NCBI RefSeq assembly: GCF_900113305.1
Contig: NZ_FOOW01000004.1
Coordinates: 62,001 to 126,000, forward strand
Direction: 5' to 3'
DNA: 64,000 nucleotides
From: Prevotella sp. KH2C16
Lineage (GTDB): Bacteria > Bacteroidota > Bacteroidia > Bacteroidales > Bacteroidaceae
Shown: in pieces, positions 3,348-33,151 of the stretch
Position numbering within the stretch: the stretch's first letter is position 1
How the letters are laid out: each line of letters begins with the position of its first letter
The notes under the pieces: generated by a model
Told to the model about the DNA's origin: nothing
What the model saw: the letters and a program-made list of their open reading frames with translations, nothing else
Databases searched by the model: none
Made by a program: the position numbers and the translations under genes

Positions 3348-3368
3348 CAGAAAAATCAAGTGCAGACA

Positions 3369-4124
3369 ATGAATAAGATACTCTCAATACTCCTTTTGCT
3401 TACATTCTCGTTGGGACTTCCTGCCCAGAACGAGCCCACCTATCTGAAGACCTTTGAATACGACAAGCGCATCCACGACTTCGGAACCATACTGGAAAAG
3501 GACGGCAAGGTGAGCCATACTTTCACTTTCACGAACAAGGGAAGCAAGCCCGTCGTCATCAACGAGGTGAACTCTTGGTGCGGATGCACCGGCAGCGAGT
3601 TCAGCAGGAAGCCGATTGCCCCCGGCAAGACCGGCACGGTAACCGTTACCTACAATCCGCTGAACCGCCCCGGAAAGTTCTCCAAGGAGGTGGCCGTGCT
3701 GCTGAACGACGGCAGGAACTACACCCGCATCTGGGTAAAGGGGAATGTGATAGGCTACCTGCATCCCGTTACCGAGGACTATCCTTACGCCTTCGGACGA
3801 GGACTGTACATGGGATTTAAGGTGTTGCCGTTCGGCTCTTTGAAGCCCGGGGAGTCATATACCTTTGAGCAGAGAATCGCCAATGACACCGACAAACCCA
3901 TGACCGTGGAGTTTGAGAAGGTGCCCGACAACCGCGTGCTCAAGATGCCCGGCAGGATAGAACTCAAGCCCAGGGAGCGCACTACATTCAAAGTTTCCTA
4001 CAAGGCGGTAAGGCAATATCCCTACGACCGCCACATCCTCGTCAGGATTAAGGTAAACGGTGCATCGGTAAAGCCCATGCGCGTAACTTGGTTTGGCACG
4101 AAACCACGGCAAGTAGAACTTTAG
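3369..4124 (+). CDS. DUF1573 domain-containing secreted protein
   Basis: The chosen start at 3369 gives a clean signal peptide (MNKILSILLLLTFSLGLPAQ). The longer in-frame ATG at 3318 would begin inside the promoter and add a non-signal extension. The mature protein begins with a DUF1573 Ig-like domain: the HDFG motif, the TFTFTNKGSKPVVI strand and the CGCTG turn are typical. A second beta-sandwich-like half follows (about residues 135-251). DUF1573 proteins are common exported Bacteroidota proteins of unknown biochemical role. It sits 12 bases upstream of a GH29 fucosidase, so it is probably co-transcribed with glycan-degrading enzymes and may act in adhesion or scaffolding; that role is inference. 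Confidence 0.85.
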   Translation: MNKILSILLLLTFSLGLPAQNEPTYLKTFEYDKRIHDFGTILEKDGKVSHTFTFTNKGSKPVVINEVNSWCGCTGSEFSRKPIAPGKTGTVTVTYNPLNRPGKFSKEVAVLLNDGRNYTRIWVKGNVIGYLHPVTEDYPYAFGRGLYMGFKVLPFGSLKPGESYTFEQRIANDTDKPMTVEFEKVPDNRVLKMPGRIELKPRERTTFKVSYKAVRQYPYDRHILVRIKVNGASVKPMRVTWFGTKPRQVEL

Positions 4125-4136
4125 AACATCGACGAT

Positions 4137-5957
4137 ATGAAAACTAAAAACCTATTATTAAGCATGCTGTTCCTGCTCCCCGCAGGCATGACGGCACAGA
4201 ATGAAGCCCCCGCCCCGGTAGCCCCCCTGCCTAACGAGAACCAAGTGGAGTGGCAAAAACTCGAGACCTATGCCTTTATCCATTTCGGCCCGAACACCTT
4301 CGGCGACCGAGAGTGGGGCTATGGCGACGCCCCGCTGGAAAGTTTCAATCCCCGGAAACTCGACTGCGAGCAATGGGCTAAGACACTGAAGGCCGCCGGC
4401 ATGAAGGGCATCATCCTCACCTGCAAGCATCACGACGGGTTCTGCCTGTGGCCTACGAAGTACACCGACTACAGCATCCGCAATACTCCCTACAAGAACG
4501 GGAAGGGCGATGTGGTAGGAGAACTCTCGGCAGCATGCAAGAAATACGGGCTGAAATTCGGCGTCTACCTCTCCCCGTGGGATCGCCACCAAGCCTTTTA
4601 CGGCACACCTCTTTATATAGAGTACTTCTACTCCCAGCTTCGGGAGCTGCTCACGCAATATGGCGACATCTTCGAAATCTGGTTCGACGGTGCCAACGGC
4701 GGCGACGGCTACTATGGCGGAGCTCGCGAGACGCGCACCATTGACCGCCGTACTTATTACAATTTCCCGCGCGCTTTCAAGCTTGTCAATGAGCTTCAGC
4801 CCAAGGCCATCATCTTCTCCGATGGCGGCCCGGGCTGCAGATGGGTAGGCAACGAGAGCGGATATGCCTTTGCCACCAACTGGTCGTTCCTCCGCATCAA
4901 CGATGTCTACCCCGGATACCCCGACTATTGGGAGCTGATGTCGGGACACGAAGACGGCGACACCTGGGTTCCTGCTGAGTGCAACACCTCCATCCGGCCG
5001 GGATGGTTCTATCATGAGAGCGAGGACAGCAAGGTGAAAAGCGTCGACCAGCTCGTAGACTTGTATTATCGCAGCGTAGGGCACAACGGCACCTTCCTCC
5101 TGAACATGCCCGTAGACAAGGACGGCCTGATACATCCCGTAGACTCCGCCCGCGTCATCGCCTTCCACAAACAGATTTCCTCGGAGCTCAAGACCAACCT
5201 ACTGACGAAAGGAGTGAGCATCAAGGCTTCGAATGTGCGCGGCAAGTCGTTTAGCGAGAAAATGCTTACCGACGGGCAGTTTGATACCTACTGGAGCGTG
5301 AACGACGACCAGAAGGAGCCCTCGCTGCTGCTGTCTTTCAGCCGGCCGACGAAACTTAACCGCATGATGCTCCAGGAATACATCCCCCTTGGGCAGCGTG
5401 TGCAGCAGTTCCTCGTCGAGTATCGGCAGGGCAAGGAATGGCTGCCGTTGAAGATGAACGAGGAGACCACGACCATCGGCTATAAGCGCCTGCTGCGCTT
5501 CAAGACCATCCAGACCTCGCAGATTCGCATCACCTTCCAGAAGAGCCGCGGCCCCATCTGCATCAATGAGCTGGGAGCCTACTATGCTCCGAATGCCAAG
5601 GACCAGTTCATAGAGAGAGTGGAGGATGTGAAGAGCCTTCCTTTCACGGTATCAACAGCCAATCCCGATGAACTATACTTCGACTTGGGAAAGGTGCAAG
5701 GACTAAAGTCATTCTACTATCTGCCCGACCAGAACCCACGGCACAAGGGCCTCGTAACCCACTACGAAATCTATGTGGGCAAGGAAAAGGGCAGCATGAA
5801 GAAGGTGGCGGAGGGCGAATTCTCCAACATCCGCAACCATCCCGTCATGCAGGAAGTGCACTTCCCCCCCACCCAGGGTCGCTACCTGAAGTTCAAGGCC
5901 ACACGCATGGTCAACGAGGGAGAGCTTATCGACTTTGACAATTGCGCCATACAATAA
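4137..5957 (+). CDS. Secreted alpha-L-fucosidase (GH29) with C-terminal discoidin-like domains
   Basis: The 606-residue protein has a signal peptide (cleavage near MTAQ) and a GH29 catalytic domain to about residue 345. Landmarks are the FIHFGPNTFGDREWG segment, TCKHHDGFCLWPTKYTDYS, and IFEIWFDGANG, with Asp184 as the likely nucleophile. After this come two beta-sandwich segments resembling F5/8 type C (CBM32-like) modules, about 355-480 and 490-606. This architecture is that of GH29 enzymes often specific for branched fucosyl linkages, but that is inference. It is flanked closely by the DUF1573 gene (12 bases) and the GH3 gene (21 bases), implying one operon. It differs clearly from the 455-residue GH29 upstream, so the two fucosidases are not a recent duplication. 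Confidence 0.92.
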   Translation: MKTKNLLLSMLFLLPAGMTAQNEAPAPVAPLPNENQVEWQKLETYAFIHFGPNTFGDREWGYGDAPLESFNPRKLDCEQWAKTLKAAGMKGIILTCKHHDGFCLWPTKYTDYSIRNTPYKNGKGDVVGELSAACKKYGLKFGVYLSPWDRHQAFYGTPLYIEYFYSQLRELLTQYGDIFEIWFDGANGGDGYYGGARETRTIDRRTYYNFPRAFKLVNELQPKAIIFSDGGPGCRWVGNESGYAFATNWSFLRINDVYPGYPDYWELMSGHEDGDTWVPAECNTSIRPGWFYHESEDSKVKSVDQLVDLYYRSVGHNGTFLLNMPVDKDGLIHPVDSARVIAFHKQISSELKTNLLTKGVSIKASNVRGKSFSEKMLTDGQFDTYWSVNDDQKEPSLLLSFSRPTKLNRMMLQEYIPLGQRVQQFLVEYRQGKEWLPLKMNEETTTIGYKRLLRFKTIQTSQIRITFQKSRGPICINELGAYYAPNAKDQFIERVEDVKSLPFTVSTANPDELYFDLGKVQGLKSFYYLPDQNPRHKGLVTHYEIYVGKEKGSMKKVAEGEFSNIRNHPVMQEVHFPPTQGRYLKFKATRMVNEGELIDFDNCAIQ

Positions 5958-21347: not shown

Positions 21348-24300
21348 ATGGAAAAAAGACTAACGATGCTTTTGGCCTGCCTGTTTCTTGGCATAGGAAT
21401 GGCTCTGGCTCAAACTAAAGTTACAGGAACCGTAGTTTCTCAGGAAGACGGCGAACCCGTAATCGGGGCTTCTGTCATGGTAAAGGGCACGAAGACAGGT
21501 GTCATTACCGACACCGAAGGCCGTTTCTCCTTGTCGGTATCCTCTGCCAATCCCACCATCGTGGTGAGCTACATTGGCATGAAGCCGCAGGAATTACGGG
21601 GACGCCAGGACATGAGAATTGTCCTTGAGCCTGACGACAAGACCCTTCAGGAGGTCGTGGTAACCGGTATGCAGAAGATTGACAAGCGCCTCTTCACCGG
21701 AGCCTCGACGAAGGTGAACGCCGCGGAGGCCAAGATCGACGGTATGGCCGACATCAGCCGCTCGCTGGAAGGCCGTGCCGCCGGCGTGAGCGTGCAGAAT
21801 GTAACGGGAACCTTTGGTACTGCGCCGAAAATCCGCGTGCGTGGTGCCACCTCCATCTATGGCTCGTCGAAGCCTCTTTGGGTAGTCGACGGTGTCATCA
21901 TGGAGGATGTGGAGAATGTCAGTGCCGACCAGTTGTCGTCGGGTGATGCCAACACCTTGATTTCTTCGGCCATTGCCGGACTGAACGCCGACGACATCGA
22001 GAGCTTCCAGATACTGAAGGATGGTTCTGCCACTTCTATCTACGGTGCCCGCGCCATGGCGGGCGTGATTGTCGTAACGACGAAGAAAGGTAAGGCCGGA
22101 CAGGCTCACATCAGCTATACAGGGGAGTACACCATGCGGCTGGTGCCGTCGTATGCCGAGTTCAACATCATGAACTCGCAGGATCAGATGGCCGTTTACC
22201 AGGAGCTTTTCCAGAAGGGATATCTGCCCTATGCCGGTACGGCCAACGCTTCCGACTCGGGTATCTATGGCAAGATGTATCAGATGCTGAGCCAGTATGA
22301 CGATACCACGGGGCAGTTTGCGCTCGCAAACACGCCGGAGGCGATTGCCGACTATCTGCGTGCAGCCGAGTATCGTAATACCGACTGGTTCAGCGAGCTC
22401 TTCTCCACCAACATCATGCACAACCATTCCGTGAGCATCTCCTCGGGTACGGAGAAGTCGCAGACCTATGCGTCGATAAGCGCCATGTTCGACCCGGGCT
22501 GGACCAAGCAGAGCAAGGTGCAGCGTTATACGGCAAATGTGAACACTTCCTACGATATCTCCAAGAAGCTGAACTTCAACATGATAGCCAACGCCTCCTA
22601 CCGTAAGCAGCGTGCCCCGGGAACCCTGAGCTCGTCGATCGACGCCGTGACGGGTGAGGTGAAGCGCGACTTTGACATCAACCCATATTCCTATGCGTTG
22701 AACACCTCGCGTGCGCTGGAGGCTAACACCTATTACACGCGCAACTACGCGCCCTTCAACATCCTGCACGAGTTGGAGAACAACTATCTTGACTTAAGCG
22801 TCATCAACTTCCGTGCACAGGGCCGCCTGACCTATAAGCCCATCACGCAGGTGGAGCTGGCCGTACTGGGAGCCGTGAAATACGACGCCACTTCTAACGA
22901 GCACAACATCCTGGACGACTCTAACCAGGCACAGGCATACCGCGCGATGGGCACTTCCACCATCCGCAGCAAGAACCCGTTTCTCTATACCGACCCTGAA
23001 GACCTGACTGCGCTGCCTGTAACCGTATTGCCTTACGGCGGTATCTACGAGCGCACCGACAACCGCATGTTCGGCTGGGACTTCCGGGCCACGGCATCCT
23101 ACAACGATGTCTTCAACGAAGACCACATCGTGAACTTCTATGGCGGTCTGGAGACCAACAGCTACGACCGCCACAAGAGCTGGTCCCGCGGCTGGGGCAT
23201 GCAGTACAAAATGGGCGAGGTGGCCAACTACGCCTATCAGGTCTTCAAGCAGAGCAAGGAGCAGGGCACGGATTATTTCACCCTCTCCAACACCCATGTG
23301 CGCAGCGCGGCTTTCTTCGCCAACGCCACTTACTCGTGGAAAGGGCGTTACACCGTGAACGGCACTTACCGCTATGAGGGCACCAACGGGCTGGGCATGG
23401 CTCGTAGTGCACGCTGGCTGCCCACCTGGAACATTTCCGGAGCGTGGAATGTGCACGAGGAACCCTGGTTCTCCAAGCTGCAGCCGGCTCTGAGCCACCT
23501 CACTTTCAAGGTCTCCTATTCGCTCACGGCCGACCGTCCTTCGGTAACCAACGCAGAGGCTGTTTTCAAGAGCAGGACTCCCTGGAGATACTTCACGCGC
23601 GACAGCGAGACAGGGTCGTATATCGACGATGTGGCGAACCCCAGCCTTACCTATGAGAAGAAGAAAGAGTGGAACTTCGGGCTCGAGGCCGGTTTCCTGG
23701 ACAACCGCATCAACTTTGCGGTGGATGTCTACCGCCGTAATAACTATGACCTCATTGGTGTGGCAACAACGGGCGGCATCGACGGTTTCATCCAGAAGTA
23801 TGGTAACATTGCTTCCATGAAGTCGAATGGACTGGAGCTGAGCCTGAGCACGACCAACATCAAGACGAAGGACTTCAGCTGGACCACCAGCTTGATCTAT
23901 TCCCACACCCATAACGAGGTTACCGACCTGGAGACATCCACCCGCATCATCGACCTGGTGAGCGGCACGGGCTTTGCCCGCGAGGGCTATCCGGTAAGGT
24001 CGCTCTTCTCCATCCCGTTCGCGGGGCTGAACAGCCATGGCCTCCCCACCTTCTATACCTCGGACGGCGGAACCACCATATCGGGCATCTCCTTCCAGGA
24101 GAGCAACCAGAAGGAGCTCGACTTCCTGAAATATGAAGGCCCCACCGATCCTACCGAAACCGGCTCGTTCGGCAACATCTTCCGCTACAAGGGTCTTACG
24201 CTGAATGTGTTCATCACCTATTCGTTCGGCAATGTAGTTCGTTTGGATCCCGTTTTCAAGGACTCCTACAACGACCTGACCTCTACTCCCAAGGAGTTTA

Positions 24301-24665
24301 AGAACCGCTGGATGGTGGCAGGAGATGAAAACAAGACCGACATACCGGCCATCGCCACGCAGAGGCAGAACTGGAACGACACCGACTTGGATATAGCTTA
24401 CAACTCTTATAACTACTCTTCGGCCCGTGTTGCCAAAGGCGACTTTATCCGAATGAAGGAAATATCGCTTGGCTATGACTTCCCGGAATCGCTCTACCAG
24501 CCCGTGGGGCTGAGCAATCTGTCGCTGAAGCTGCAGGCCACGAACCTCTTCCTGATCTATGCCGACAAGAAGCTGAACGGCCAGGATCCGGAATTCTTCA
24601 ATACCGGTGGCGTGGCCGTCCCGGTGCCGAAACAGTTTACGCTTACATTAAGATTGGGAATCTAA
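21348..24665 (+). CDS. SusC/RagA family TonB-dependent outer-membrane transporter
   Basis: The 1105-residue protein has a signal peptide ending near MALAQ. A carboxypeptidase-regulatory-like beta domain follows (about 24-100, with VTGTVVSQEDGEPVIGASV). The TonB box region is LQEVVVTGMQ and the plug domain runs about 110-240. The remainder is the 22-strand barrel, ending in an aromatic-poor terminal strand TLTLRLGI. There is no N-terminal STN domain, so direct anti-sigma signalling is unlikely. It pairs with the SusD gene 14 bases downstream. Because the next gene encodes a metallohydrolase rather than a glycosidase, the cargo could be a peptide or glycopeptide as for RagAB; that is inference. 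Confidence 0.95.
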   Translation: MEKRLTMLLACLFLGIGMALAQTKVTGTVVSQEDGEPVIGASVMVKGTKTGVITDTEGRFSLSVSSANPTIVVSYIGMKPQELRGRQDMRIVLEPDDKTLQEVVVTGMQKIDKRLFTGASTKVNAAEAKIDGMADISRSLEGRAAGVSVQNVTGTFGTAPKIRVRGATSIYGSSKPLWVVDGVIMEDVENVSADQLSSGDANTLISSAIAGLNADDIESFQILKDGSATSIYGARAMAGVIVVTTKKGKAGQAHISYTGEYTMRLVPSYAEFNIMNSQDQMAVYQELFQKGYLPYAGTANASDSGIYGKMYQMLSQYDDTTGQFALANTPEAIADYLRAAEYRNTDWFSELFSTNIMHNHSVSISSGTEKSQTYASISAMFDPGWTKQSKVQRYTANVNTSYDISKKLNFNMIANASYRKQRAPGTLSSSIDAVTGEVKRDFDINPYSYALNTSRALEANTYYTRNYAPFNILHELENNYLDLSVINFRAQGRLTYKPITQVELAVLGAVKYDATSNEHNILDDSNQAQAYRAMGTSTIRSKNPFLYTDPEDLTALPVTVLPYGGIYERTDNRMFGWDFRATASYNDVFNEDHIVNFYGGLETNSYDRHKSWSRGWGMQYKMGEVANYAYQVFKQSKEQGTDYFTLSNTHVRSAAFFANATYSWKGRYTVNGTYRYEGTNGLGMARSARWLPTWNISGAWNVHEEPWFSKLQPALSHLTFKVSYSLTADRPSVTNAEAVFKSRTPWRYFTRDSETGSYIDDVANPSLTYEKKKEWNFGLEAGFLDNRINFAVDVYRRNNYDLIGVATTGGIDGFIQKYGNIASMKSNGLELSLSTTNIKTKDFSWTTSLIYSHTHNEVTDLETSTRIIDLVSGTGFAREGYPVRSLFSIPFAGLNSHGLPTFYTSDGGTTISGISFQESNQKELDFLKYEGPTDPTETGSFGNIFRYKGLTLNVFITYSFGNVVRLDPVFKDSYNDLTSTPKEFKNRWMVAGDENKTDIPAIATQRQNWNDTDLDIAYNSYNYSSARVAKGDFIRMKEISLGYDFPESLYQPVGLSNLSLKLQATNLFLIYADKKLNGQDPEFFNTGGVAVPVPKQFTLTLRLGI

Positions 24666-24679
24666 AAACAGATATTGAT

Positions 24680-26272
24680 ATGAAAAGAAGTAAATTGATA
24701 TATTCCGTTATCACCTTGGGCTTCGGCCTCATGGCGTTCACTTCCTGCGACGACTTCCTGGATGTGATGCCGGACAACCGCACCGTCATCGATACGGAGG
24801 ATAAGGTCAAGAGCCTGCTGGTTTCCGCTTATCCCAATTACGACTACAACCTGTTCACGGAGTTGCTTTCCGACAATGTGGATGAGTATCAGAATACTTA
24901 TACCGAGCGTTTCATCGACGAGCTCTATCAGTGGAAAGACCCTAAGGAGTCTAACAACGAGTCGCCGGAGAGCTACTGGGAGGCGGCCTACCGAGCCGTC
25001 ACCACAGCCAACAACGCTCTTGAAGGTATAGAGAAAGTAGGTGGAGCTACGACCACAACGCTGAAGGAATGCAAGGGCGAGGCTCTGCTGGCGCGTGCCT
25101 ATGCCCACTTCATGCTGGTCAATATCTTCAGTCTGAACTATAATTCCGCCACCGCTGACAAGGACCTTGGAATTCCGCTGATGTATGATACGGAGGCGGA
25201 AATCGGAGTGGTGCCCGACCGCGGCACCGTGGCCGATGTTTATGCATCGATAGACAAGGATATCCAGGAGGCTCTTCCCCTGATCGGCGACAGCCATCTC
25301 TCAATTCCGAAATATCATTTCAACACGAAGGCTGCCTATGCCTTTGCCACCCGTTTCTATCTCTATTACGAGAAGTGGGACAAGGCCATCGAGTATGCCG
25401 ACAAGTGCCTGGGCTCTAATCCCAAGTCATTGCTCCGCGACTGGTCGAATGTGGCTACGCTGGCCTCTACTTTTGAAGTGAGGTCGCAGCATTATGTGTC
25501 GTCAGAGTTGAACTGTAACCTGCTGCTCGCCACAGGTTATTCCAATGCGGGAGTTGCCTTCGGGCCTTACTTTACATGGAAGAAATATACTCACGGACCT
25601 TATGTCTCCAATCAGGAGGTCGGCGGAGCGGAGCATCCGTGGGGCGGTTCCACGATGCTCTATGATGCTCCTCACTCCTATCCGGGCACAGGCTACAGCT
25701 TCGTCATCTTCTGGCGAGTGCCTTATATGTTCGAGTATACCGACGCAGTAGCCGGCATCGGTTACCGTCGTTCGATATTCCCGCTCTTTACGACAGACGA
25801 ATGCCTGCTCAACCGCGCCGAGGCCTACACCATGACTCAGCAATATGACAAGGCGGCCGCCGACCTCACGCTGTGGATGCAGAACATCACGCGGTCGAGC
25901 ACCACGCTGACTCCTGCCGGCATCACGAACTTCTATAACGGTATCGCCTATAGCTACGAGGATAAAGACAAGCCGCTGGCATCGACGGTGAAGAAGCACC
26001 TGCACCCCGCCTTCAGCATCGACAAGGAGGGCAGCACCCAGGAAGCAATGCTCCAGTGCGTGCTCGACTTCCGCCGTGTGGAGACCTTGCATTGGGGTCT
26101 GCGCTGGTTCGACATCAAGCGCTATGGCATCGAATATCCCCGCAGGGCCATAGATGTTTCCGGTTCTCCATACAAGAAAACGGATTTCCTCTCTAAGGAC
26201 GATCCCCGTCGCGCTGTCCAGTTGCCGTCGAAGGTGCTTGATGCAGGCGTTACGGCCAATCCGAGGAATTAA
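24680..26272 (+). CDS. SusD/RagB family outer-membrane lipoprotein
   Basis: The 530-residue protein starts with a lipoprotein signal (AFTSCDDFLDV, with Cys about residue 25). It shows the helical TPR-like SusD fold, including ESYWEAAYRAVTTANNALEGIE and LRWFDIKRYGIEYPRR near the C-terminus. SusD proteins form the surface lid over the SusC barrel and bind the cargo before import. It is co-transcribed with susC and three downstream lipoprotein genes. The bound ligand cannot be inferred from sequence. Confidence 0.95.
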   Translation: MKRSKLIYSVITLGFGLMAFTSCDDFLDVMPDNRTVIDTEDKVKSLLVSAYPNYDYNLFTELLSDNVDEYQNTYTERFIDELYQWKDPKESNNESPESYWEAAYRAVTTANNALEGIEKVGGATTTTLKECKGEALLARAYAHFMLVNIFSLNYNSATADKDLGIPLMYDTEAEIGVVPDRGTVADVYASIDKDIQEALPLIGDSHLSIPKYHFNTKAAYAFATRFYLYYEKWDKAIEYADKCLGSNPKSLLRDWSNVATLASTFEVRSQHYVSSELNCNLLLATGYSNAGVAFGPYFTWKKYTHGPYVSNQEVGGAEHPWGGSTMLYDAPHSYPGTGYSFVIFWRVPYMFEYTDAVAGIGYRRSIFPLFTTDECLLNRAEAYTMTQQYDKAAADLTLWMQNITRSSTTLTPAGITNFYNGIAYSYEDKDKPLASTVKKHLHPAFSIDKEGSTQEAMLQCVLDFRRVETLHWGLRWFDIKRYGIEYPRRAIDVSGSPYKKTDFLSKDDPRRAVQLPSKVLDAGVTANPRN

Positions 26273-26302
26273 AGTCAAGATTAACTTTAAACGATTAGGA
26301 AT

Positions 26303-27205
26303 ATGAAGAAAATATTAATATATGCTTTCGCGATCCTGTCCGGTGCCGTACTGTTCACCTCCTGTTCGGAAGATGACTTGAGCCCGGAGAGCATCATCAC
26401 CGTCGACCAAGTGGACTATACCGAGTTCGACCAATGGCTGAAAGCAAACTTTATCAATACCTACAACATCGATCTCAAGTACCGATTTCAGGATATAGAG
26501 ACCGATCACGACTACTATCTGATTCCCGCCGACTACAATCAGTCCATCAAGTTGGCGCACATCATCAAGTATGCCGTGCTGGAAGCCTTTGACGAGGCTG
26601 CCGGAATCAACTTCACCCGGGGCAACTTCCCCAAGCAAATCTACTTGGTGGGAAACTGGGAATACCGCAACAACGGCACCTTCGTGCTGGGTACGGCCGA
26701 GGGAGGAAAGAAGGTTTTCCTTGCCGGCGTGAATCTTCTGGACGAGAATCTCTCGAGCATCGCGAGCCTGAATGAGTATTATCTGAAGACCGTCTACCAT
26801 GAGTTCACCCACATTCTGAACCAGACCAAGGACTATGCGGCCGACTATCAGTTGATTACGGCCACGGATTATGTGGCCGGTGAATGGAGCGAGGCTCCTT
26901 ATAACGCGAGTAGCTATTATCTGGAGCATGGATTCATCTCTGCCTATGCCCAGCATTCCCACGGCGAGGACTTTGCCGAAATGTTCTCCCTCTATGTAAC
27001 CAATACCCCCGAACAGTGGGACGCATGGATGGAAACAGCTGGAACGGACGGTGCAAACCACATTGCCTCAAAGCTCTCCTCTGTACGGGATTACATGGAG
27101 AAGTCGTGGGGAATCGATATGGATGAGTTGCGTGATATCGTCCTTCGTCGTGAGGCTGATATTGTCGCAGGCAAGATAGACCTGTCAGATTTGACCGTAA
27201 AATAA
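26303..27205 (+). CDS. Substrate import-associated zinc metallohydrolase lipoprotein
   Basis: The 300-residue lipoprotein (signal ending LFTSC) carries an HExxH zinc motif, YHEFTHILNQ, with His166, Glu167 and His170. A downstream GEDFAEMFSLYV segment probably supplies the third ligand. It matches the family of putative zinc-binding metallopeptidases (Peptidase_Mx1 type) that is repeatedly found next to SusC/SusD pairs. It probably sits on the outer membrane and cuts the imported substrate, plausibly a protein or peptide. Substrate and peptidase activity are inferred, not shown. Spacings of 30 and 16 bases place it in the same operon as its neighbours. Confidence 0.88.
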   Translation: MKKILIYAFAILSGAVLFTSCSEDDLSPESIITVDQVDYTEFDQWLKANFINTYNIDLKYRFQDIETDHDYYLIPADYNQSIKLAHIIKYAVLEAFDEAAGINFTRGNFPKQIYLVGNWEYRNNGTFVLGTAEGGKKVFLAGVNLLDENLSSIASLNEYYLKTVYHEFTHILNQTKDYAADYQLITATDYVAGEWSEAPYNASSYYLEHGFISAYAQHSHGEDFAEMFSLYVTNTPEQWDAWMETAGTDGANHIASKLSSVRDYMEKSWGIDMDELRDIVLRREADIVAGKIDLSDLTVK

Positions 27206-27221
27206 CATAAGGATTACGATT

Positions 27222-28541
27222 ATGAAGAAGAATAAGTATTTTATATATTTGCTGCTCCTGCTCCCCGCGCTGATGCTGGGGTCTTGCACTCCGGAGCAGG
27301 ACGACTATTTCGACGAGCCGTCTTCCACGCGTCTGGCCAATCTGATGTCTTCCACACGCAAGGCTCTGATGGGCTCCGAGCAGGGATGGGTGTTTGAGGT
27401 GTTCCCCGGGCTGGACGGTCAGGAGTTCGGGGGGTGTGTCTATACGGCGAAGTTCGACAGCCTCACCGTTTCCGTCAGGAGCGAGCTTGCCGGCGACCCT
27501 ACCTACGAGGAGACCTCTTATTATAAGATGACCAACGAGGCCGGTGCCGCTGTTATCTTCGATACGGGCAACCAACTCATCCATTATCTCTCCGAGGGAA
27601 CTTCCTCTAACTATAAGGCACTCGGTGGCGACATCGAGTTCGTGATAGACAGTGTGGGCGCGGATATCATCAAGGTTCATGGTGCCCGCTCCGGCAATAC
27701 CTGCTACTTCCGCCGCCTCACTATGCCGGCAGAAGACTATATCGCGGCCGTGGGTGCCATCCAGGCCGACTTCATCTATGGCAACTACTATGGAACCATA
27801 GGCGGAAAGGCCGTTGCCGCAGAGTTTAACCTGAACTCCAATCAGATTTACATTAATCCAGACACGACCCAGACCGTGGAGGAAGTATCCACTTCTTTCA
27901 TCTATACCAATACGGGCATCCGTTTCTACGAGCCTATCACCATTAACGGCATCACGGTTTCAGAACTTGCGTTTGACTATGATGCGGGCACGCTCACGGG
28001 TACCGACGGCTCGGGTAACACCTTTGTGCTTACCGGAATACTGCCGGAAGGCTATCGCATGTTTGCCGACTATGAGGGAACCTATCGCTTGCTCTACAAC
28101 AAAGGCAGCAGGAGCATGACTGTAACGCTGACTCCCGATGAGACTGGCAGTCGTTATTACATGACCAATTTCTTCCCGAATTCTCCCACGACGCCTATAA
28201 CGCTCACCTATAGCAAGGCCACCGGCGCGCTCTACATGAATTCTCAGCAGGTTGCCACGGAAGGCGGCAATCAGGTATGGCTTTGCGGATGGGCTCTTGC
28301 TGCAGGCGGTAATCTTACCTGGGATGAGTCTGCAGGTATGATGACAAAGTGGAATGGCGATGAGGCTAATCCTGTCTATACCTGGGTGGACAATGCGCAG
28401 TCATCTTACATTATCGACTCGTTCATCGTCTGGACGCTGAATTCAGCAGGTTCAAGTGCAGGTCAGTATGCGGGCACTCTGTATCGGATTCGCACCGGAA
28501 GCTCGCAGATGCCTTATGTTACAACAATGACAAAACAATAA
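27222..28541 (+). CDS. DUF4302 domain-containing lipoprotein
   Basis: The 439-residue protein has a lipoprotein signal (LMLGSCTPEQ). Its N-terminal region fits DUF4302: a segment containing SEQGWVFEVFPG, strands with GGCVYTAKFD, FDTGNQLIHYLSEG, and LGGDIEFVID. The remaining 250 residues are beta-rich. DUF4302 lipoproteins accompany SusC/SusD-metallohydrolase loci in Bacteroidota and are presumed surface-exposed accessory binding proteins, but their biochemical role is unknown. It lies 16 bases after the metallohydrolase gene and 12 bases before the BACON gene. Confidence 0.8.
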   Translation: MKKNKYFIYLLLLLPALMLGSCTPEQDDYFDEPSSTRLANLMSSTRKALMGSEQGWVFEVFPGLDGQEFGGCVYTAKFDSLTVSVRSELAGDPTYEETSYYKMTNEAGAAVIFDTGNQLIHYLSEGTSSNYKALGGDIEFVIDSVGADIIKVHGARSGNTCYFRRLTMPAEDYIAAVGAIQADFIYGNYYGTIGGKAVAAEFNLNSNQIYINPDTTQTVEEVSTSFIYTNTGIRFYEPITINGITVSELAFDYDAGTLTGTDGSGNTFVLTGILPEGYRMFADYEGTYRLLYNKGSRSMTVTLTPDETGSRYYMTNFFPNSPTTPITLTYSKATGALYMNSQQVATEGGNQVWLCGWALAAGGNLTWDESAGMMTKWNGDEANPVYTWVDNAQSSYIIDSFIVWTLNSAGSSAGQYAGTLYRIRTGSSQMPYVTTMTKQ

Positions 28542-28553
28542 AGGAGACTGATT

Positions 28554-29645
28554 ATGAAAAAGATATTTGGATTATTAGGCTTTGTGCTGGGCTTGTTGGT
28601 CTTTGCCGCCTGCGGCAGCGATGACATCGACAATCCCTATGCAAAGGTCTCAAGCATCAGCGTCGACAGTGCCTCTGTCTTGTTTCAGGCGGCTCCGGGC
28701 ACGGGAGTGGTTACGGTTACCGCCCCGAATGGCATCACGAAGGTGGTCTCAGAGCAGCCTTGGTGCACGACGACCGTCAATGGTAATGTGGTTACCGTGC
28801 AGGTAGAGGGCAACTCTGACATGCTGGGCCGCTCGTCGTTATTGACCATTTATTCCGGCGAAGACTATGCTCAGGTTACCGTTCAGCAGATGGGATTCAT
28901 CTTTGCGTTAGACGCATCTTCCATTGTCTCGGGCGACGATGCCGCCACGCTGAGCTATGGGATGAACGCTAATGCCGATGTAGCCGTCAGCACGAGTGCC
29001 GACTGGATTACGGCCAGTCTCGGAAATGGCACGCTGGAAGTAAAGCTCACGGCGAATACCACGGGTCATATCCGCAAGGGATATGTCTATTATGAGGCCG
29101 GAGCGCTGAAGGATTCCGTATCCGTAACCCAGTACGACTTCGACAAGGACATTGCAGGCAACTACCGGCTACTCTACAGGGAGACGGAAAATGCCACCGA
29201 GTTGTATTATCTGAATGCCGTGGTCAGCAGGGATTCTATCTCGCTGCCGGATCTCGGCCTGAGGCTTCCTGCCTCCTTTGACGAGAGCGGCATTTCAATT
29301 AATTTCCAGTGCGGGCAGTATTGCGGGCAGTATGGTTCTTACTATGTCTATACAGCCTTTAGTTTGGGGGGCGGTTATTGGACGGCTTACTATACCACCA
29401 CTACGGCCTGGGGTGTCTTCGACTATGATAACGAGGCAGGCTACCAGTATTGTGCCATCGACCAGTCCACCAGTAGCCGTGGCTTTACGGGCTTCACCCT
29501 CAGGGCTTGCAGCGAGCAGAACTTCAGTGCGGATACCGAGCTGGGTGCACTTATAGACCTCTACAGTCCCCTTCTTCAGAAGGTTGACGGGGCTGGTGGA
29601 GCCAAGGAAGCCCTGAAGGCTCCTGCGCTCAAGCGCGGCAAGTAG
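28554..29645 (+). CDS. BACON-domain lipoprotein
   Basis: The 363-residue lipoprotein (signal ending FAACGSDDID) contains two Ig-like BACON domains, about residues 30-112 and 115-195. They have the typical SADWITASLGNGTLEV and TTTVNGNVVTVQVEGN strands. A C-terminal beta-rich domain of about 150 residues follows. BACON modules usually act as spacers or ligand-binding modules on surface proteins. As last gene of the SusC/SusD operon it is likely a surface accessory binder. The C-terminal domain is not recognised. A strong terminator follows. Confidence 0.82.
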   Translation: MKKIFGLLGFVLGLLVFAACGSDDIDNPYAKVSSISVDSASVLFQAAPGTGVVTVTAPNGITKVVSEQPWCTTTVNGNVVTVQVEGNSDMLGRSSLLTIYSGEDYAQVTVQQMGFIFALDASSIVSGDDAATLSYGMNANADVAVSTSADWITASLGNGTLEVKLTANTTGHIRKGYVYYEAGALKDSVSVTQYDFDKDIAGNYRLLYRETENATELYYLNAVVSRDSISLPDLGLRLPASFDESGISINFQCGQYCGQYGSYYVYTAFSLGGGYWTAYYTTTTAWGVFDYDNEAGYQYCAIDQSTSSRGFTGFTLRACSEQNFSADTELGALIDLYSPLLQKVDGAGGAKEALKAPALKRGK

Positions 29646-29715: not shown

Positions 29716-29837
29716 TTTCTTTGCTGCCAACTACCGTTGGCTATGCTGCCGAGGGTACCCTGAAGGAAGTGCATCCTGCCTGTCGGGAAGTTGCGCACAT
29801 AGGATATGAGTTTTTTGTGAGTTGCCAGGACATTTTC

Positions 29838-29868
29838 TTGCGATTGTCAGAAATATCCTGTAACTTTG
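29838..29868 (+). promoter_or_regulatory. Promoter of the GH28 pair, very close to the start codon
   Basis: TTG at 29838-29840 is followed after 20 bases by TAACTTTG at 29861-29868. The ATG at 29877 lies just eight bases beyond, so the message would be leaderless or nearly so. Confidence 0.7.
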
Positions 29869-29876
29869 TGGCTATC

Positions 29877-31655
29877 ATGAAGAAGACCATCACAACATTA
29901 TTGCTGGTGCTGCTCTCTTTGGGAGTGAACGCAGCCCGCGAACTTACCTCCGCACAGCTCAAGCTGGTGGGGAACGGAAAGATTCTGAATACCGCTGCCC
30001 TTCAGGCGGCTATCGACAAGTTGTCTCGCAAAGGCGGCGGCAGGCTCACCCTGCTCAAGGGCACCTATCTCACGGGTGCCATCCAGCTCAAGTCGGGCGT
30101 GGAACTGCATCTGGAGAGCGGAGCCACTTTGTTGGGAAGCACCGACCCGAAAGACTATTACCAGTTGCAGGTGGGCGGTGAGGGTGATGTCGTGCGCAAG
30201 GACAATTCCAAGTACGGGCTGATCCTTGCCCAAGGTGCACGGGACATCAAGCTCACCGGCTATGGCACCATCAACGGACAGGGACGGGAGCTGGCGCTCA
30301 CCATCGACTCCCTCTGCAAGGCGGGCATCCTGAAGGACGAGAACTATAGCACCCGTCTGCGTCGCCCAAGCGAGATTATGCGTCCGAAACTCTTTTTCTT
30401 CAGCGAGTGCGACGGGGTGGAAATCAGCCAGCTCACGCTGCGTGAGAGTGCTTGCTGGGGCTTGAGTTTCGACCAGTGCCGCCGTATGAAATTGGATAAC
30501 CTCACCGTCTTGAATCGTGCCTACTGGAACAACGACGGCATCGATCTGACGGATTGTGCCGATGTCGAAGTGGCTAACTGCTATATCAATGCTGCCGACG
30601 ACGGCATCTGCCTGAAGAGTTATCACCTGCACGGAGTGAGCGAGAATATCCATATTCACGACTGCCACATCGAGAGCTCGGCGTCGGCCGTGAAGTTCGG
30701 CACCGCCTCGTGGGGTGCTTTCCGCGACATCAGCATCCGCAATATCGATGTGCTGAACACCTTCCGCTCGTGCATTGCCATCGAGAGTGTCGACGGGGCG
30801 AAGATCGAGAACATCCTCGTCGACGGCATGAAGGCTCGCAACACGGGCAACGCCATCTTCGTGAAGCTCGGCAACCGGGCAGGCGACGGCACGGGATACA
30901 TCCGGAATGTGCAGCTAAGAAACTTCGATGTGGAGCTTGCGGAGGGGCGCCCCGATGAGGGCTACGACATCCGCGGACCCGAAGTGAGCTATTTCCACAA
31001 CCCCTTCCCCTCCAGCATTACCGGCTATCCGGGCCATGATGTCCGGGATGTGGTTCTCGACAGCATCCGTATCGTAGCCCCGGGCAACGCCAGCAAGGGC
31101 ATGGCCTATGTGCGGGTAGACGAGGTTCCGGAGAACGAGAAGAATTACCCCGAGTTCACCATGTTCGGAGAGTTGCCCGCATGGGGCTTTTTCTTCCGTC
31201 ATGTCAACGGTCTCACGATGCGCCGCGTAGAGCTGACATACAGGAAGAAAGACTTCCGGAGCCCCATCGTGAAGGACGATGTGAAGAACTGCGGGGAAGA
31301 GGATGTCGCCGTAAAGTGGCAGTATGCGAACTTATTTGTCGACTATCCGGAACATCAGCCGTCGTTCCCGGGTGGAAGTAGTGCCCTCCTGAAATATATT
31401 GCCGACCATGTGCGGCATTCCGGCGGCAAAGGTGCGGGGCAGGACAAGGTCGTAGTAAGCTTCGTCGTGGAGCGCGACGGCTGTCTGTCAGACTTCCAGA
31501 TAACGCGTTCCTTGGACCCTGTACTCGATGCCGAGGCTCTGCGCGTGGTGAAGGGCATGCCCCGCTGGACTCCGGGAAAGCAATATATGAACGGCTACGG
31601 CCTTGTGCCTGTGCGGACAAGATATAATGTGCCAATAACTTTTAAAGCAAAATAA
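29877..31655 (+). CDS. GH28 family glycoside hydrolase fused to a TonB C-terminal domain
   Basis: The start at 29877 gives a signal peptide (MKKTITTLLLVLLSLGVNA); the longer frame from 29712 begins inside the terminator. Residues 25-480 form a GH28 right-handed beta-helix with YWNNDGIDL (Asn218-Asp220) and AADDGICLKS (Asp241-Asp242). The usual GHG and RIK motifs are not found; at the GHG position it reads SSASAVKFGTAS. From about residue 490 to 592 the protein is a TonB_C-type domain: QPSFPGGSSALLKYIADHVR, KVVVSFVVERDG, LDAEALRVVKGMPRWTPGKQ. That fusion is unusual, since the domain normally ends TonB or BlaR1-type proteins. It is paralogous to the next gene over residues 1-470. Pectin/rhamnogalacturonan-type activity is inferred. 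Confidence 0.88.
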   Translation: MKKTITTLLLVLLSLGVNAARELTSAQLKLVGNGKILNTAALQAAIDKLSRKGGGRLTLLKGTYLTGAIQLKSGVELHLESGATLLGSTDPKDYYQLQVGGEGDVVRKDNSKYGLILAQGARDIKLTGYGTINGQGRELALTIDSLCKAGILKDENYSTRLRRPSEIMRPKLFFFSECDGVEISQLTLRESACWGLSFDQCRRMKLDNLTVLNRAYWNNDGIDLTDCADVEVANCYINAADDGICLKSYHLHGVSENIHIHDCHIESSASAVKFGTASWGAFRDISIRNIDVLNTFRSCIAIESVDGAKIENILVDGMKARNTGNAIFVKLGNRAGDGTGYIRNVQLRNFDVELAEGRPDEGYDIRGPEVSYFHNPFPSSITGYPGHDVRDVVLDSIRIVAPGNASKGMAYVRVDEVPENEKNYPEFTMFGELPAWGFFFRHVNGLTMRRVELTYRKKDFRSPIVKDDVKNCGEEDVAVKWQYANLFVDYPEHQPSFPGGSSALLKYIADHVRHSGGKGAGQDKVVVSFVVERDGCLSDFQITRSLDPVLDAEALRVVKGMPRWTPGKQYMNGYGLVPVRTRYNVPITFKAK

Positions 31656-31660
31656 AACCC

Positions 31661-33151
31661 ATGAAAAAAACACTTTTAGTCTTTTGCCTTGTGCTCCTCT
31701 CGTTGAGTGCAGGTGCCCGGAAAACCATTACCTCTGCCGAAGCCGGCCTCGTAGGGGATGGCAGAACTCTGAACACGACTGCCCTTCAAACTGTCATCGA
31801 TCGTCTCTCGCGTGAAGGTGGAGGCGTGCTGCAGCTTCAGCAGGGCACCTATCTCACGGGCTCCATCCTTCTCCGCTCGGATGTGGAGCTGCGTCTTGAC
31901 AAGGGAGCCGTGCTCCTGGGCAGTCCTAACCCTGATGACTATACCGATCTCCGTGAGCAGGTGGAGGGCAAGCCGTTGCCGAAGAGTGTCTACAGCCTCG
32001 CCCTCGTGGTTGCTTACAAGGGCAGGAACATCAAGATTACGGGCCGCGGCACCATCAACGGGCAGGGGCGTAAGGTAGCACTTGCCATCGACAGCCTCCA
32101 CCTGAAGGGCATCAGGAAAGACCCTAACTACTTCACCCGGCTGAATCGTCCGCGTGAAATCGTGCGCCCCAACCTGCTCAACTTCATGGAATGTGAGCAG
32201 GTGGAGCTCCGGGGAAACCATTATGAGGGTAGTGCCTGCTGGGGACTGGTGTTCGTGAAGTGCCGCCAGCTGCACATAGAGGGCCTCGACATTCGCGACC
32301 GCGACTACTGGAACAACGACGGTATCGACATTGCCGACTGCCACCAAGTGGTGGTGCGCGACTGTCATGTGGACGCTGCCGACGACGGCATCTGTCTGAA
32401 GTCAGACGATGCGACAGCAACCAACAAGGACATCCTCGTGGAAAACTGCCGCGTGGAGTCGTCGGCTTCAGCCATCAAGTTCGGTACGGCAAGTGCCGGA
32501 GGCTTTCAGGACATCATCATCCGCAACATCAAGGTGAAGAACACCTTCCGCTCTGCCATCGCCATAGAGAGCGTGGACGGCAGCATCTGCAAGAATATCC
32601 TGGTGGAGAACATAGATGCCCGCCACACGGGCAACGCCATCTTCCTGCGCATTGGCAAGCGATGGGGCAAGCGGCAGGCCATTCTGGAGAATGTAATCCT
32701 GCGTAATATCACCTGCGAGGTGCCCTTCGAACGCCCCGACAAGGGCTACGACATGCGCGGTCCCATAGATAACACCATGCTCAACCCCATTCCCTCCAGC
32801 ATCACGGGCATACCTGGGATGAAGGTGAAGAATGTGGTGCTTGAGAACATCACCATCACCTGCCCCGGCCAGGCCTCCAAGGGCGTGCGCTATATCCCGT
32901 TGTGGAACATCGGTTCCATTCCCGAGAAGATCAACAGCTATCCCGAGTACGACATGTTCGGCGAGCTTCCGGCCTATGGATTCTATCTTCGCCATGTGGA
33001 CGGCATCGTTTTCCGGAATGTGCGTTTCAAGCTGGACGGCGAGGAGTTCCGCCCTGCCTTCGTACTCGACGACGCGAGGAATGTAACCTTCGAGCGCATC
33101 ACTTATCCGAAGGGGCACGATAAGAACCAGATTTACTGGAAGAAAGACTGA
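31661..33151 (+). CDS. GH28 family glycoside hydrolase (polygalacturonase/rhamnogalacturonidase-like)
   Basis: The 496-residue protein has a signal peptide (cleavage near SAGAR) and a GH28 beta-helix throughout. YWNNDGIDIADC and AADDGICLKSDD lie at the same residue numbers as in the upstream gene (Asn218-Asp220, Asp241-Asp242). Together with close similarity along the helix, this indicates a tandem duplication. It lacks the TonB_C extension and ends soon after the last helix coil. The GHG motif is replaced by SSASAIKFGTAS, so it belongs to a divergent GH28 group. It starts 5 bases after its paralogue and is followed by a terminator. Confidence 0.9.
   Translation: MKKTLLVFCLVLLSLSAGARKTITSAEAGLVGDGRTLNTTALQTVIDRLSREGGGVLQLQQGTYLTGSILLRSDVELRLDKGAVLLGSPNPDDYTDLREQVEGKPLPKSVYSLALVVAYKGRNIKITGRGTINGQGRKVALAIDSLHLKGIRKDPNYFTRLNRPREIVRPNLLNFMECEQVELRGNHYEGSACWGLVFVKCRQLHIEGLDIRDRDYWNNDGIDIADCHQVVVRDCHVDAADDGICLKSDDATATNKDILVENCRVESSASAIKFGTASAGGFQDIIIRNIKVKNTFRSAIAIESVDGSICKNILVENIDARHTGNAIFLRIGKRWGKRQAILENVILRNITCEVPFERPDKGYDMRGPIDNTMLNPIPSSITGIPGMKVKNVVLENITITCPGQASKGVRYIPLWNIGSIPEKINSYPEYDMFGELPAYGFYLRHVDGIVFRNVRFKLDGEEFRPAFVLDDARNVTFERITYPKGHDKNQIYWKKD

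Follow-up and report, generated by a model that had tools for sequence, protein, structure and literature searches.

A GH28 glycosidase fused to a TonB C-terminal domain in two Prevotella species

The window, that is, the whole stretch of 64,000 nucleotides of Prevotella sp. KH2C16 that was analysed, carries an open reading frame for a protein of 592 residues in which a GH28 glycosidase is joined to a TonB C-terminal (TonB_C) domain. A SusC/SusD gene cluster lies upstream and a second GH28 gene downstream. The following features were delineated:

21348..29645, + strand: adjoining genes for SusC, SusD, a zinc metallohydrolase lipoprotein (TIGR04549), a DUF4302 protein and a BACON protein (Pfam/NCBIfam)
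29837..29868, + strand: Bacteroidetes-type promoter-like site, CTTG-N20-TAACTTTG, 8 bases before the ATG
29877..31655, + strand: GH28-TonB_C fusion gene, 592 aa (ORF translation, Pfam/NCBIfam matches, same full-length fusion in locus L053)
29877..29933, + strand: apparent signal peptide, residues 1-19 (VNA before and ARE after the cut), no lipobox Cys (by eye)
29934..31307, + strand: GH28 right-handed beta-helix, residues 20-477 (Pfam, alignment, full-length model)
31329..31652, + strand: TonB_C domain, residues 485-592, here called the tail (Pfam, profile comparison, tail model)
31416..31445, + strand: remodelled YP...QG segment, residues 514-523 (alignment with other TonB_C domains)
31584..31607, + strand: loop before the last strand, residues 570-577 (alignment; identical in both fused copies)
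31661..33151, + strand: tandem GH28 paralogue without TonB_C, 496 aa (Pfam/NCBIfam)

Both parts of the protein were recognised by Pfam above the curated cut-offs, in agreement with the original prediction of a GH28 enzyme fused to TonB_C in 29877-31655. Glyco_hydro_28 (PF00295) matched residues 92-265 (E 1.2e-15, 57.9 bits versus a cut-off of 22.9), which is part of the beta-helix only, and TonB_C (PF03544) matched residues 522-590 (E 2e-9, 38.2 bits versus 24.6). The NCBIfam model tonB_Cterm (TIGR01352) was barely reached by the fusion protein, with 27.1 bits at a cut-off of 27.1. The homology of the tail is longer than the Pfam match and spans approximately residues 485-592. When the tail was compared by hhalign with a profile built from seven other TonB_C domains, an E-value of 5.6e-33 was obtained, and a search of the tail profile against the sequences of solved structures found TonB weakly (best E 0.027). 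As read from the sequence, TonB_C follows directly upon the beta-helix; spacer, linker and membrane anchor are all absent.

The same fusion was found in a second species, Prevotella sp. oral taxon 376 F0043 (L053), where it lies on a 316 kb contig and extends over residues 1-592 with 520 of the 592 residues identical (88%). There it is followed by the same paralogue, and the genes upstream match those from SusD to BACON in order and length, with the SusD and metallohydrolase genes aligning well with their counterparts in the window. An assembly artefact joining two genes, which the original prediction had named among the findings that would refute it, was rejected, since another species has the same full-length fusion with flanks in matching order; we regard its probability as negligible. 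That is, the GH28-TonB_C fusion is genuine.

Within the genomes sampled, the fusion is known from two Prevotella species only. Of 560 confirmed relatives the 80 best were kept, and among these the tail was covered in one locus, L053. When 398 sampled genomes of the same genus were searched with query residues 430-592, a single genome (1/398), that of KH2C16 itself, joined both parts among the matches listed, which reached down to E 3.4e-26, and a set of 100 genomes overlapping the 398 gave the same result (1/100, again the own genome, among the matches listed). Likewise, 1 of 393 sampled genomes of the same order, KH2C16, had the fusion among the matches listed (E <=1e-60), while a GH28 relative at this threshold was present in 22 of the 393, own genome included; up to three candidates per genome were scored in the same-order scan, and all genome sets are samples of larger groups. 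The survey that had been proposed for the same fusion thus yielded L053 as a further carrier, but returned the own genome alone from the sampled genus and order sets. A glycosidase-TonB_C fusion was not found in a literature search limited to open-licence PMC papers and the term sets used, and as far as these searches reach, the glycosidase is a new companion of TonB_C.

The nearest orthologues among the kept loci share 70-72% identity and belong to Prevotella sp. P5-108 (L054) and to the MAG SUG78 (L055, whose contig is apparently that of G064). Both adjoin a tandem paralogue and both end without the tail. Since orthologues at this level of identity lack it, the tail was probably gained recently, and the simplest history suggested by the sequences would place its acquisition on the common branch of the two species that carry the fusion. 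The tandem paralogue of the window starts 5 bases past the stop codon of the fusion gene, and its Pfam matches are to GH28 and a related beta-helix only. The idea that one copy of the tandem pair had gained the domain is therefore borne out by the paralogue and the nearest orthologues alike. The accompanying statement that the paralogue stops at the start of the extension is close to exact, but has to be amended by about 16 residues of its own beyond the end of the alignment with the fusion.

With regard to the source of the tail, its DNA gave no match in PLSDB, which was searched for arrival by plasmid, and in 40 relatives (own genome included) it was found outside the own genome only as short pieces of at most 123 bases, in 7 of the 40. 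A tree was built from 73 TonB_C domains, in which the tails of both fused copies grouped together (100/100) on a long branch with no settled position among the others; a program warning concerned the small number of columns and the long branches. Scans of viral contigs gave few TonB-like rows (3; two, on the same contigs again; none). The loci L199, L200 and L201 are TonB-like genes on IMG/VR contigs classed as viral, and may be phage-borne or host contamination.

The full-length model of the fusion protein matched the GH28 structures 5olp, 2uve and 3jur, and the residues N218-N219-D220 and D241-D242 were invariant in 36 aligned proteins (35 besides the fusion protein). We take D220, D241 and D242 to be the catalytic Asp triad of GH28. 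The best NCBIfam model was NF049898 (RhamgalacuronBT4146, E 2.2e-65), which in its best matching segment extends to residue 473 and stops short of the tail. No substrate was assigned, because the score of 221.2 bits did not reach the equivalog cut-off of 500. The sequence points to a pectin-backbone GH28 enzyme that would be closest to the rhamnogalacturonidase group, its specificity being left unassigned. The BT4146-type rhamnogalacturonidases of the Bacteroides thetaiotaomicron RG-I locus are thus like the fusion in their best model, but unlike it in that the fusion scores below the equivalog cut-off and continues past the model match. BT4146 is named among three GH28 rhamnogalacturonidases that end RG-I breakdown in Bacteroides, in a passage of the review PMC8002723 on periplasmic steps.

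The GH28 pair lies 231 bases away from the SusC-to-BACON genes, which probably form a separate operon. In front of the fusion gene stands CTTG-N20-TAACTTTG, which we take to be of the Bacteroidetes promoter type; with C in place of T in its first box, this site was missed by a strict two-box search. Inspection by eye of L053, L054 and L055 revealed TTG, a distance of 20-21 bases and TAACTTTG or TATCTTTG, placed 7-8 bases before the ATG. By itself, TAnnTTTG is found at 18 places on the + strand of the window. At 29837-29880 of the window, and upstream of position 6001 in L053, L054 and L055, TAnCTTTG ends 7-8 bases before the start codon, and since it lies so near in four loci, the GH28 transcript may be nearly leaderless. 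A scan for sigma-70 type promoters and terminators gave no clear excess over shuffles (4 versus a mean of 4.2, and 8 versus 6.3, respectively).

In L054 and L055 the orthologous GH28 pair adjoins genes for a GH29 fucosidase and a GH3 enzyme, and no SusC-sized frame was found near it in the stretches covered, where smaller frames were tested in part. The SusC/SusD operon named as a neighbour in the original prediction does adjoin the fusion gene, but is probably a separate transcription unit in view of the promoter-like site. For a special link to the SusC at 21348, adjacency is the one support that the comparison gave, as the GH28 pair carries a promoter-like site of its own and has GH29/GH3 neighbours in two relatives. 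Within the upstream cluster, the DUF4302/DUF4987 gene at 27222-28541 looked far more divergent from its L053 counterpart (3357-4676) than the neighbouring genes did; this comparison was ungapped and probably out of register, and the dN/dS that it gave was disregarded.

Most of the beta-helix was confident in the full-length model, in which a helix at residues 2-15 overlaps the apparent signal peptide. The tail, for which the alignment was essentially two rows deep, had block-mean pLDDT values of 34-51 and was not confidently placed. Because of this low confidence, it was folded alone with an alignment of five rows, resulting in a mean pLDDT of 81.4 and a pTM of 0.73. The order of elements in this tail model is a short helix, then a helix, two strands, a helix and two strands. 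With Foldseek, TonB and TolA C-terminal domains headed the list (best E 1.0e-3, none below). VIA-align gave as best match the TonB fragment bound to FoxA (6i97_D, Z 9.3, rmsd 2.2, 86 residues aligned), and ranks 2-9 (Z 7.2-9.1) were TonB C-terminal domains as well. That is, the predicted fold of the tail is like that of the TonB C-terminal domain (TonB-CTD), as had been anticipated for this region, although the TonB homologues in the five-row alignment make the model dependent on the sequence match.

We then compared the tail sequence with 71 other TonB_C domains from the own genome and the same genus, with one row from another family. Among these, 22 columns were conserved to at least 90%, and both fused copies kept 19 of the 22, including V579, P586 and F589 of the last strand. 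The three changed columns are Y514, which is H in both copies, P515, which is S in the window copy only, and G523, which is D in both. At the YP position the window copy thus reads HS and L053 reads HP, versus YP in 67 of the 71 other domains; the four without it include a lipoprotein of the own genome (L006). The changed columns are neighbours among the 22, for which the chance is 20/1540 with three random picks (post hoc arithmetic), and the YP...QG segment around them has lost residues relative to other TonB_C domains. The stretch from P566 to Y583, in which the loop before the last strand lies, has 18 residues in both fused copies versus 13 in 68 of the 71 others (the remaining three are short or empty across it), and in the tail model the added residues prolong the last hairpin. 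TonB is like the fusion in the sequence and predicted fold of its C-terminal domain, but the fusion has no membrane helix or spacer, an altered YP segment and an enzyme in front.

Comparing the window with L053, we obtained dN 0.137, dS 0.845 and dN/dS 0.162 for the tail (116 codons), versus dN 0.055, dS 0.949 and dN/dS 0.058 for the GH28 part; dN/dS of the paralogue was 0.073. The tail is under purifying selection. Its constraint is weaker than that of the enzyme, since its dN is about 2.5 times the enzyme's and lies above the range of 0.033-0.081 found in 300 sampled, overlapping GH28 blocks of 116 codons.

Our favoured reading, which we put forward tentatively as somewhat short of probable, is a periplasmic GH28 enzyme that uses TonB_C as a non-energised docking appendage. 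The common ancestor of the two Prevotella species would have joined a TonB C-terminal domain to a periplasmic GH28 pectin-backbone enzyme. Like TonB, the tail would use its exposed last beta-strand to bind a partner, and once docked it would hold the enzyme at a site of the cell envelope, possibly where oligosaccharides enter; periplasmic location, docking role and partner are what we infer here. Presumably the tail cannot pull, having no membrane anchor, motor-binding helix or periplasm-spanning spacer, and energy transduction is implausible because anchor and spacer are missing, when compared with the force-transduction mode of TonB in passages of PMC12204202 and PMC11658791. Docking without pulling is plausible because passages of PMC13253070 describe how the TonB box is bound as an additional strand next to the third strand of the TonB-CTD, and how the FusB-CTD of Pectobacterium also binds its protein substrate directly. 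The FusB-CTD is like the fused tail in being a TonB_C domain, one that according to these passages also binds a non-receptor protein, but it is the C-terminal domain of an inner-membrane TonB homologue and has no enzyme. The docking reading is favoured by the domain matches, the TonB-like tail model, the full-length copy in L053, the purifying selection and the conserved columns kept in both copies; against it speak the weaker constraint on the tail than on the enzyme, a known occurrence in just two species and the unsure placement of the tail in the full-length model.

Docking could be specific for the TonB box of SusC-type receptors, which would place the enzyme at the import channel or let it compete with TonB and, as the original prediction supposed, might couple hydrolysis to import. 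The adjacent SusC has LQEVVVTG after its N-terminal extension, which to us looks like a TonB box; in addition, the last strand of the tail is conserved and the FoxA-bound fragment is the top match of the tail model, albeit within 1 Z of free TonB-CTDs. The YP motif of TonB is, however, described as contacting the TonB box, so that docking on a SusC plug, although possible, is weakened by the alteration of this motif in both fused copies, a motif most other domains keep. All three Riemerella anatipestifer TonBs are also described as doing without YP, and this speaks for SusC docking; the own promoter-like site, the GH29/GH3 neighbours in two relatives and the harm that competition with TonB should do to the cell's own uptake speak against it, and overall we consider it unlikely. 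A structural tail, which closes off the beta-helix at its open end or dimerises the enzyme in the way isolated TonB-family CTDs pair via their last strands, is possible, though on the unlikely side. It would suit a domain that begins right at the end of the helix and has a prolonged last hairpin in its model, and dimers are described for FusB-CTD and one E. coli TonB fragment; yet orthologues and paralogue do without the tail, and its low pLDDT in the full-length model means no confident packing on the helix. Narrow distribution, raised dN and clustered changes of conserved residues could also betray a recently captured domain of little use that is drifting toward loss. This we hold to be very unlikely, as the frame has stayed intact over a dS of 0.85 at a dN/dS of 0.16, most conserved columns persist and the two species have the added loop in identical form.

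Returning to the non-energised docking appendage, the captured and motorless TonB_C might park the glycosidase on outer-membrane transporters or their periplasmic extensions, where it would cut oligosaccharide as it emerges, the altered YP and the private loop having retuned the domain from pulling to holding; in this extended form we find the proposal quite unlikely. Should the tail indeed dock the enzyme, the fusion would exemplify the natural use of a TonB C-terminal domain as passive adaptor, and would provide a handle on those TonB_C domains of Bacteroidota that sit on non-TonB proteins. The tail-less tandem paralogue and the tail-less orthologues are ready-made controls.

TonB_C had been regarded as mainly a domain of TonB and BlaR1-type proteins, a view that finds less support in the own genome. 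It has nine TonB_C matches, and its carriers include, according to Pfam, a thioredoxin-like protein (L008) and a signal-peptide protein (L005), besides the lipoprotein (L006). Like the fusion, these three have TonB_C on an exported protein without TonB architecture (export signals by eye); unlike it, they have no glycosidase, and YP is kept in L005 and L008 but not in L006. Within the same genus, kinase-like proteins and further proteins with a signal peptide likewise have TonB_C at their C-terminus, as judged by eye from the first 90 residues at 20 TonB_C loci. Two of the same-genus genes, L168 (1017-2822, - strand) and L169 (719-2506), combine a kinase-like N-terminus with a C-terminal TonB_C (by eye). 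L006 (1321-1707, contig C26) encodes 128 residues that are lipoprotein-like by eye and consist almost only of TonB_C. The gene at L008 (1297-2199, - strand, contig C35) encodes a secreted thioredoxin-like protein that ends in TonB_C and is a second enzyme-like fusion.
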